This document shows, piece after piece, positions 14,671 to 17,600 of a stretch of DNA of 19,264 nt. How positions within the stretch are numbered: position 1 is the first letter of the stretch; every line of letters starts with the position of its first letter. The notes below the pieces were generated by a model. That model searched no databases and had not been told where the DNA came from. It saw only the letters and a list, made by a program, of their open reading frames with translations. Origin of the DNA: Coemansia sp. RSA 922 (taxonomy: Eukaryota > Kickxellomycota > Kickxellomycetes > Kickxellales > Kickxellaceae). The translations under genes were made by a program, and so were the position numbers. The stretch lies in NCBI GenBank assembly GCA_027577415.1, contig JANBQS010000385.1, positions 1 through 19,264 of the forward strand. Reading direction: 5' to 3'.

Positions 14671-17600
14671 CTAGTCGACGCCAAGTGTGTTCTTGAGCTT
14701 GACAACGAGCTTCCATTCTTCCATAGTCAAATCATCACGGAAACTCTCCTTGAGGACGTCAATGCTGTCGCGAGTAATTTGTGAGTAGAGCAGATCCTCC
14801 TCGTCAAAGTGGCGACCAAACTTCTTGTCGTGGCCTGGCACTATACTCTCAATGCGGATAGTGAAACCGGCACCGGCTTTGCCTTTACGGACAATATCAA
14901 CTGGCTTGTCGTTAACCTTGATGCTGGTTACTTTGCCCAACGTGATAGGTCTGTGGACATGGGTCACAAGGTTTGTCTTCATTACACAGATAGGAGTTCC
15001 CAGGCGTAAGTGACCTTCCAAAATGTCGACACCAAGCAGGAGACCAGAGCGCGTATTGAAGACGTGTTCCTCGCTGATTATCTTCATGATACAAGGATAG
15101 ATCGCCCGGTCTGCCAGTTCCTTGCGCTTCTGCTCCGCGATCCGAGAGTTGTGCGCCATGTAGTTGTCAACCAAGTGATAGATAATATCCGCCGAGTACA
15201 CCAAGAGGCCAAGCTCCTTGGCCATTCTCTCGGCATCCTTGTCAAATTTAACGTCAAAGCAAAGCATAACCGCGTACTCCTTGGCACGCTCTAGCATGGC
15301 CGATGCGCGGGTAACGTCCTTCTTGTGAACGGGTCCAATGTTGATGCCCGACACAGGGATCTTGGACACACGCAATAATTCCAACAGGGCTTCAAGGGAT
15401 CCCAGAGTAGAAGCCTGCACCCACACTCCGCGTCCAGACTTGTCAATGGCATCATCCAGCCAAGCCAGATCTGACATGAATTCGTCCATCAGCTCCTCCT
15501 CATCGTCGTCGGGACCAATTACCATCAGACGTGAGCCTGCAATGGCCTTCTCCAGACCAGGGGCATAGATCTTCACGCCCATAGCGGCCTTGATCGACTT
15601 GTGGTGGACATAGGCCGACTTGACGCGCATCTCGCGCATGGACTGAGGAGTAAGCAGGGCGCGCACATTGGTGACAATAGGACCGTCCATGCCACAAATA
15701 ATGATCCGGTCACCCACGTGAAGCATTCCATTCGACATAATGACGTCGATCGTCGTACCCAGGCCCTCAATAACCTTGACTTCGAGCACAGTGCACTCCA
15801 GCTCAGAGAAATACATGAGCTGCTTAGACATGCGCTGCTGTGTAAGCGTGACCAACAAATCAAGCATGTCAGGAATGCCCTCGCCCGAGAAGGCTGAGGT
15901 GGGCACCAGCGACACGTACTTGGCAAAGTTCTTGTTCTTGTAGTGCAGCTCGGCGTTCAGGCCCTGCTCGGCAAACTCGACTTTGACTTGAGCGACTCGG
16001 TCCTCAAACAGGCTGACAGTACGATCTGGCTGATTCTTGAAAGTGTCGCGGAATGGGCTGTTGGGATGCTTGTTCCAACCATATATGCAATCAATCTTGT
16101 TGAGAGCAACGATAAAGGGCGTCTTGCGCTCGCGCAGCAGACGCAGCGACTCGAGGGTCTGAGGCTCAAGGCCGTGCATAATATCGACAACAAGAATAGC
16201 GATGTTACACATCGACGAGCCACGCGAGCGAAGGTTGGTGAACGACTCGTGCCCAGGCGTGTCGATAATCAACAAGCCAGGAATCTTGATGTCAATCTTG
16301 CTCGACGGATACATGGCAGCCGTCTTCTTCTCGATAGCATCGGCGGGGAAGAAAGTGGCACCGATCTGCTGCGTAATACCTCCAGCCTCTCCGCCTTGGA
16401 CGTTGGTCTGGCGGATCTTGTCGAGGAGCTTGGTGTTATGCGAGACAGTGTAGTCGCCAAGCAATACGCGCGAGTTGCCATCAAGTGTGAAGCCAAAGTA
16501 CTCTCCCTGACCGATCTCCTCAATGGCAAATACCCAAGAGTTGCTGCAAAGCGCTGCCCACGATTCCGGCGTGCGCTCAGCAGGACGCTTGTGCTCGAGA
16601 CCAGTGAGTGGAGCAAAGGTGCACACTGCCTCACCAGAGATGGATATAGTGCTACCAGCAGCCGATTGAGAAACAGGGCCGACATGGAGCCCAATGGAGC
16701 GAGCAAGACGACGTAGCTGAAGCAAGAATTGCTCGTCCGAGCTGGACACTTCCCAGTGCTCCTCAGCAGCGGAGGCAGCCACAAAGGTGGTGCTGTCGCT
16801 TTCAATGACACCCGCAAGGAACTCCCTTCTGTGGTTCAATGAGGCGGACATGATAGCGTCGGGGATTCTCTTCTCGTCTGTCAAGGCGAACTCTTTAAGG
16901 AGAGCCTTACGAGTGTCCTCAGCGTCGGCACTGGGGATACCATTGGCACCACTGCCAAGCCAGACGCCAAAGAACCTAGCCGTCTCCAGCTCTTGGATGG
17001 ACGTGGGGACAGACCCAAAGGCCCGGGTGATAGCGTCAGTGAAGGGCTGACTGGCGCTGGCGGAGAACTCGACACCATTCACGGGCTTGTACATCGAGCA
17101 CAGATCGGCAGAAGCGCGGTCGGTGCGAACCAAGTCCAAGTACTCCAGAACCGTGCACTGCCACGTCAGCGGCTGCCACTCTGGCAGCGCAGCCAGTGCT
17201 AGCTCCTCGGACTCAAATTCGCCGTAGACTAGCTGACTCGGCTTGTTGGCAGCAGAGTCGATAGCAATCGACTTTGCAACGTACTTGGTTTCAGTGACGC
17301 CATCGACCGTGCGGACGTCGCACTGGACGTAGGGCTTGTGGTTGATAGCCAGCACCAGGACGTGCTCACCGTTGCACACAAAGGAGTCAGCACCATCGCG
17401 CTGGTCAGGCACAACACGGTACAGCACTCCTTCTCCCTTGATCACCGACCCAGGCTGCACAACGCGAGGCGAGTTGTCGTCGCCCATCACTTGGTCTAGC
17501 TCAACAATGTCTTGCACATTGCGAGTGGAGCCGTCCCACATCAGGATAGGCGTGTCGCGGCCCCAGCACTTGCCAGTGTCGACGTGACCCAAGATACAGC

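Follow-up and report, generated by a model that had tools for sequence, protein, structure and literature searches.

A predicted class 1 intein in the P-loop of nuclear eIF5B of Coemansia sp. RSA 922, and the wider pattern of eIF5B inteins

The interrupted eIF5B gene

The window analyzed here, a stretch of 19,264 nucleotides from the fungus Coemansia sp. RSA 922, holds on its minus strand a gene for the initiation factor eIF5B. The phosphate-binding loop (P-loop) of the encoded protein is interrupted in frame, between GHVDTGK and TKLLDK, by 378 residues with the anatomy of an intein; the spliced protein would have 1029 aa. The features are as follows, a slash in a motif marking a junction here and below:

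14671..18894, minus strand: eIF5B precursor gene, a single open reading frame of 1407 aa, stop included, with matches to Pfam and to solved chains
17569..18894, minus strand: N-extein, residues 1-442, with the C-terminal end GHVDTGK
17569..17589, minus strand: 5' part of the P-loop, GHVDTGK; the -1 residue is Lys442
16435..17568, minus strand: predicted intein, 378 aa, residues 443-820, from Pfam, junction reading and predicted structure
17530..17568, minus strand: splicing block A, first residue Cys1
17356..17382, minus strand: splicing block B, FVCNGEHVL, which holds Cys65 and His69
16948..16974, minus strand: endonuclease block C, FFGVWLGSG; Ser206 faces Asp in LLGLWIGDG of PI-SceI
16792..16818, minus strand: endonuclease block E, LAGVIESDS; Glu256 faces Asp in LAGLIDSDG of PI-SceI
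16483..16533, minus strand: splicing block F, VFAIEEIGQGEYFGFTL
16435..16458, minus strand: splicing block G, GDYTVSHN, last residues His377-Asn378
16432..16434, minus strand: +1 Thr, the presumed splicing nucleophile and also the P-loop Thr of GKT
14671..16434, minus strand: C-extein, covering what is left of the G domain plus the domains that follow it, with the stop, from Pfam and solved eIF5B chains
16099..17640, minus strand: region of reduced synonymous divergence from the paralog of contig C953, enclosing the intein, from the divergence profile and DNA identity

The host protein is identified as eIF5B by the Pfam matches around the insert (GTP_EFTU, 1.7e-29; IF-2; GTP_EFTU_D2, whose 29.3 bits lie slightly below the Pfam cut-off of 30.3) and by the C-extein, the C-terminal 587 residues of which match solved eIF5B chains with an E value of 4.5e-237. 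Inside the insert, Pfam finds Hom_end_hint at residues 443-540 (2.7e-14) and Hom_end at residues 677-738 (2.7e-4), while no NCBIfam family matched the window intein. Class 1 inteins begin with Cys or Ser, carry a His in block B, end in Asn and are followed by Cys, Ser or Thr; the insert has Cys1, His69, His377-Asn378 and a +1 Thr, and both Pfam and a predicted structure with a high-confidence intein fold indicate a Hint domain. Removal of the insert restores the host site as GHVDTGKTKLLD, the form that 131 of 135 proteins show at a recognizable uninterrupted site (198 returned). The insertion site GHVDTGK/T and full-length alignment with the inteins of Batrachochytrium and Glomeromycota place the insert in the eIF5B intein family, which is distributed sporadically and has intein-free homologs. 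Together, sequence and structural model support a class 1 intein that splits the P-loop of nuclear eIF5B. A sequence-only reading had proposed an in-frame insert of 378 residues at GHVDTGK/T (16435..17568) with Cys1, the block B His, His-Asn and the +1 Thr in a Kickxellomycotina host; its coordinates and anatomy were right, every residue was found, and NCBI taxonomy puts the strain in Kickxellales, Kickxellomycotina.

Class 1 splicing follows a textbook pathway, and from its residues the window intein probably splices by self-catalysis. It would be translated within the eIF5B precursor and then excise itself: Cys1 would attack the Lys-Cys bond, the acyl group would move to Thr+1, and Asn378 would cyclize with the aid of His377, so that the P-loop Lys and Thr are joined in GHVDTGKTKLLDK. 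Because these two residues lie 378 residues apart in the precursor, GTP binding would have to await splicing.

In its predicted structure the window intein resembles PI-SceI, the yeast VMA1 intein, in having the full-length architecture of a Hint domain and a LAGLIDADG endonuclease fold. PI-SceI differs in host protein and in site, with a Cys as the +1 residue. The Asp residues in blocks C and E of PI-SceI are catalytic, and an active LAGLIDADG enzyme would be expected to have Asp at both positions. The window intein has Ser206 and Glu256 there, and the Asp/Asp pair occurs in 3 of 48 eIF5B inteins (P0011, P0022, P0028); Benny D115 and Sorochytrium have inteins of this type. By this comparison the endonuclease activity of the window intein seems to have been lost. 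The Hint part also superposes on the Cryptococcus Prp8 mini-intein (6mx6) at 1.5 Å over 141 residues, and both have a Cys in block B; the mini-intein, however, has no endonuclease and resides in PRP8.

eIF5B copies and probable gene conversion in RSA 922

Three eIF5B genes are present in the assembly, namely that of the window (contig C385) and those on contigs C504 (98% identity in the C-extein) and C953 (83%). Each contains a 378-residue intein with intact splicing residues, an open frame and a degraded catalytic pair. An intein-free eIF5B copy was not found in the assembly, where the next matches reach at most 43% identity with at most 125 residues covered. Given that all three copies found carry the intein, no eIF5B would bypass the precursor, as far as can be told from this assembly. 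This strengthens the earlier proposal that every eIF5B molecule must splice before it can bind GTP, although the need for splicing is itself deduced from the P-loop. To call the eIF5B step essential, as was done there, is too strong, since yeast with a FUN12 deletion is viable and grows very slowly. On the question of alleles versus duplicates for C385 and C504, the neighboring transporter has one other copy (C504, 97%) and PRP8 has two copies; VMA1 is found once, and the RNA polymerase domain PF00623 has one match.

The synonymous divergence (dS) between the window gene and the copy on C953 is 0.51 at residues 320-400 and 0.64 at residues 401-418, upstream of the intein. It is 0 in the 24 codons preceding the intein, 0.03 to 0.20 within it, 0.03 and 0.09 over the next 112 codons, and 0.61 thereafter. 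Codons for the same amino acid differ at 27 of 497 positions inside residues 418-932, against 135 of 678 beyond this tract (Fisher p 1e-13, with codons taken as independent and the tract having been picked after the profile was seen). In DNA identity the window intein is closer to that of C953 (96.6%) than to that of C504 (95.2%), whereas the exteins show the opposite order. Each part rejects the grouping of the other, with p 2e-4 and 2.5e-5 for the extein groupings under the intein data and p 1.8e-64 for the intein grouping under the extein data. In RSA 922, diverged eIF5B paralogs have thus evidently been homogenized over the intein and its flanks.

Distribution, horizontal movement and apparent loss

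A search with the insertion region returned 3749 proteins and one with the C-extein 7607; the best 120 of each were examined, and each search scored 7992 candidates only. We assembled 48 complete eIF5B inteins, 45 from protein records among the best 120 of the insertion-region search in addition to those of the window, C504 and C953. The C504 intein is identical to that of record P0002 (Coemansia sp. RSA 922) at 378/378 residues, which leaves 47 distinct ones. All 48 have Cys1, the HN end and N..H in block B; that all 48 stand at GHVDTGK/T or GHVDSGK/T follows from the extraction pattern, which required the site. Eleven further eIF5B records with cut or odd models were excluded, either for want of a usable N-terminal junction (P0029, P0044, P0046, P0047, P0048, P0051, P0053) or because the model cuts the intein (P0054, P0057, P0059, P0060); the C-terminal junction HN/TKLL is visible in 9 of the 11. 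P0038 was excluded as another host protein. The deposited eIF5B models P0060 (Coemansia spiralis), P0057 (Dimargaris cristalligena) and P0029 omit parts of the intein as introns or truncations, so that intein counts taken from annotation are too low.

Among the matches listed, the Coemansia eIF5B records (90% clusters, n=32) comprise 28 with a complete intein, two whose cut gene model keeps remnants of it (P0029, P0060) and two without an intein, P0152 from C. nantahalensis and P0158 from C. spiralis. The other carriers among these matches are Mycoemilia, Spiromyces (a remnant), Dimargaritales, Batrachochytrium, Sorochytrium, Glomeromycota, Anaeramoeba and Chilomastix, and three Mucoromycota (Cokeromyces, Benjaminiella and a metagenome sequence adjoining Umbelopsis). 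Intein-free among them are Smittium, Furculomyces, Basidiobolus, Entomophthora records and most Mucorales. The sequence-only reading had proposed a search of fungal proteomes and of intein-free relatives as checks; the former yields the family across Coemansia and other groups, the latter two Coemansia records and other fungi.

The intein phylogeny rejects the host phylogeny in approximately unbiased (AU) tests (p 1e-4 to 1e-108). The inteins reject Kickxellales (Coemansia with Mycoemilia), Zoopagomycota and Mucoromycota in the broad sense as clades, and the exteins in turn reject a tree that places the three Mucoromycota inside Coemansia (p 4e-9). Long or partial rows were omitted from the extein trees and extein-data tests (P0050, P0052, P0036, P0017, P0009) and from the intein-data AU tests (P0050, P0052). 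For the chosen rows (16 and 18, our own choice out of 135), the intein-free state requires six or more changes along branches of the extein tree that have good support. Since the intein tree rejects the host tree, the eIF5B intein moved horizontally. As to a viral source, the window intein met three pattern matches and no relative in viral_contigs; such a single-protein scan reaches close relatives only and hardly bears on a distant viral source.

P0152 and P0158, the only two intein-free Coemansia eIF5Bs among the matches listed, read GHVDVGKTLLLD at the site, with altered residues at -3 and +2 of the junction. In the 135 uninterrupted proteins, GHVDTGKTKLLD occurs 131 times, GHVDVGKTLLLD twice, and GHVDTGKTKILD and GHVDTGKTKVLD once each. 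Both records fall within Coemansia in a clade of 10 rows (100/99), inside which their position is weak (81/46). As sister records they count as one event, seen at the protein level only. From their place inside Coemansia, intein loss in this lineage is the simplest reading; that the lineage never took the intein is a less simple but conceivable one. Within the Hermodarchaeota group, three archaeal aIF5B genes (L046, L048, L050) read GHIDVGKTLLLD, which makes a variant P-loop plausible as a working one.

The archaeal inspection covered 37 of 80 loci (L037-L073), 30 of them named as archaea. In one of the 37, L065 from a Thaumarchaeota metagenome-assembled genome (MAG), an intein of 513 aa lies at GHVDSGK/T (L065:1396-3000) and thus at the same Lys/Thr pair as the fungal eIF5B inteins. 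It differs from them in matching PF14890 and not PF05203. It shows no significant similarity to the 48 eIF5B inteins: its best BLAST E value against them is 0.22, and it is absent at E<=10 from the matches of the eIF5B intein hidden Markov model; its best match in the other set is PRP8 insertion 1 (E 0.002, 23 residues). The NCBIfam model NF011418 (IF-2, 1049 positions) is long enough to suggest an included intein; its match to L065 spans the junction and scores 108.8 bits against a cut-off of 756. Independent arrival at the same residue pair would be the simplest reading; very deep common descent is the less likely one.

Related inteins were also seen away from the eIF5B site. The SNF1-like kinase P0038 has an eIF5B-type intein at YRLGK/TLGIGSF, where GK/T lies outside a P-loop (33% identity to the window intein, 40% to that of Sorochytrium), possibly through a jump between genes at similar dipeptides. 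The helicase-like proteins P0056, P0058, P0061 and P0063 carry related inteins at GK/T or GK/S, and the long-branched Anaeramoeba eIF5B intein groups with those of P0061 and P0063 (98/92). Two loci, L043 (a MAG named Desulfosporosinus) and L069 (Verrucomicrobiaceae), contain eukaryote-type eIF5B with 49-50% identity to the window, probably by contamination of the MAGs.

Other inteins, alternative explanations and meaning

The genome has ten distinct intein sites, in eIF5B, VMA1, RPB2, a YME1-like protease and, six times, in PRP8, with the junctions outside eIF5B read by eye. VMA1 (C82, L001) has a 432-aa intein, whose grouping with PRP8 insertion 5 (94/92) is flagged by the tree program as two long branches meeting. 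RPB2 (C2, a 1718-codon frame, L126:1477-2862) has a 462-aa intein, HWGLV/C...SHN/CPAETPEGQ. On C933, a frame with AAA and Peptidase_M41 domains (L128:739-1779, minus strand), of the YME1/FtsH type and named YME1 on what we take to be family resemblance, has a 347-aa Ser1 intein in the AAA domain with the junctions VGVGA/S...LLHN/SKMRSLFAAARAKAPS; it is a nuclear gene for a probably mitochondrial protein. Intein_splicing scores slightly below the Pfam cut-off of 35.8 in both RPB2 (32.1 bits) and the protease (34.2 bits). Six intein-like insertions make up 2749 of the 5154 residues of the PRP8 frame (C261, L026/L027; 5154 codons); insertions 2 and 6 resemble each other at 39% and terminate in GN/T without a penultimate His. 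A second PRP8 copy (C263, L024/L025; 4490 codons), cut by the contig end, holds four of the six whole and the starts of two, recovered by exact junctions. Ten Coemansia PRP8 records among the matches listed have 4113 to 4808 residues, and that of C. mojavensis has 2448 and no intein domain. This comparison, by length only and within the length limit of the search, suggests that a heavy PRP8 intein load is common in Coemansia. In the survey by Green et al. (2018, PMC5784728), Fusarium fujikuroi is singled out for three inteins. Two window frames (8482-9591 and 12678-14447) have no Pfam match, resemble each other by eye and share the end RLRRLLFGGW, as if they were a local gene family.

In the account we favor, a mobile element would have entered eIF5B at the GK/T pair and spread among fungal lineages while its endonuclease was active. 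It would persist in this clade although its endonuclease no longer works, since only near-precise loss is tolerated at the site, and it would have been copied between the RSA 922 paralogs by gene conversion. Established are the anatomy, the predicted fold, the distribution, the phylogenetic conflict and the lowered synonymous divergence; splicing, the inactivity of the nuclease and its role in past spread, the dependence of GTP binding on splicing and the reason for persistence we infer. We hold the account as a whole, from class 1 intein to paralog conversion, to be correct with a probability of roughly 0.94.

Some points weigh against it. The nuclease loss is read from two positions only, by analogy with PI-SceI. 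The data do not reject a clade made up of Coemansia inteins only (p 0.405), which leaves more than one direction of transfer and more than one donor of the Mucoromycota inteins conceivable; the origin of these inteins from within Coemansia, as seen in the best tree, is therefore not claimed. The N-extein holds another, weaker stretch of reduced divergence (residues 251-310, dS 0.13, 5/57 codons; 11/102 codons over residues 201-310; DNA identity to C953 94-96% at 17965-18264), so conversion between the paralogs was probably not limited to the intein. Since the nuclease is degraded in all three copies, ordinary gene conversion is the simplest cause of the tract; earlier homing is possible, and we do not prefer it in view of these degraded copies and the weaker N-extein patch.

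Of the alternatives, the best placed, albeit improbable, is that the intein is kept as a gate on eIF5B, its splicing being sensitive to oxidation or metals by way of Cys1 and of Cys65 in block B. A block B Cys occurs in 46 of the 48 eIF5B inteins, and in the Cryptococcus Prp8 intein splicing is inhibited by copper and zinc, with a distance of 8.9 Å between Cys1 and the block B Cys61 (PMC6805012). However, the RSA 922 VMA1 intein and PRP8 insertions 3, 4 and 5 have the same Cys (by eye), which points to inheritance more than to a special role; moreover, two Coemansia records lack the intein, and the intein moves horizontally. That it acts in Coemansia as a stress-sensitive gate on translation initiation, with oxidants or metals slowing splicing via Cys1 and Cys65, would be somewhat less probable still. 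On that reading, given the further inteins in PRP8 (six), RPB2, VMA1 and the YME1-like protease, protein splicing would become a precondition for translation, RNA splicing, transcription, vacuolar pH and mitochondrial proteolysis alike. It is very unlikely that the window insert is a non-splicing intein or the window copy a dying paralog: the three copies do fall into two diverged types, the window copy sharing 83% identity with C953 in the C-extein, yet splicing residues are intact and frames open in all of them, and no working copy would remain, as all three carry the intein.

That the 1134 nt are an intron or otherwise cut from the RNA, eIF5B being made without an intein, can be set aside almost entirely. 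The gene models P0060 and P0057 of relatives do drop most of the intein as if it were an intron, but they retain some intein residues and disrupt the P-loop. No intron pair within 60 nt of either edge (42 GT-AG, 91 GC-AG, 66 AT-AC) restores a GK[TS] P-loop, which rules out this reading for those classes. Furthermore, the segment is open in frame, has a high-confidence predicted intein fold and evolves as protein. A chance reading frame is ruled out by the probability of about 2e-6 for 378 open codons at the local base composition, the 5-19 stops in each of the other five frames, and nonsynonymous divergence (dN) below dS between copies.

The 2018 survey describes three eIF5B inteins, from Chytridiomycota and Glomeromycota (Green et al., PMC5784728). 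The window intein resembles such published eIF5B (IF2) inteins over its whole length and at the same GHVDTGK/T (Batrachochytrium P0035, 39%; Rhizophagus clarus P0037, 37%), and differs from them in phylum, in its degraded endonuclease and in sharing its genome with a second, diverged eIF5B type whose intein has been homogenized with it. The statement of the sequence-only reading that eIF5B inteins are known only from chytrids thus overlooked Glomeromycota. Its claim of an extended range holds against the printed record and does not hold against public protein records, which already span Coemansia and other groups. Spiromyces aspiralis is now placed in Kickxellomycotina. An RPB2 intein of that species has been in print since 2006 (Goodwin et al., PMC1635734); inteins in Kickxellomycotina are therefore not new, though the host there is RPB2 and not eIF5B. 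We found no treatment of eIF5B inteins in Coemansia, Kickxellomycotina or Zoopagomycota in the PubMed Central literature, covered mostly as titles and abstracts, with subscription journals and preprints outside it.

The window intein thus joins a known but under-described family, and the wider pattern is what it adds. The eIF5B P-loop appears as a repeated landing site, entered at the same Lys/Thr pair by one family that spans fungi and two protist lineages, and by an archaeal intein unrelated to it. One genus offers eIF5B with a nuclease-dead intein, with a nuclease-intact one and with none, which makes the intein life cycle of arrival, decay, conversion and loss testable; the apparent loss stands out because both intein-free Coemansia eIF5Bs among the matches listed have a rewritten site.
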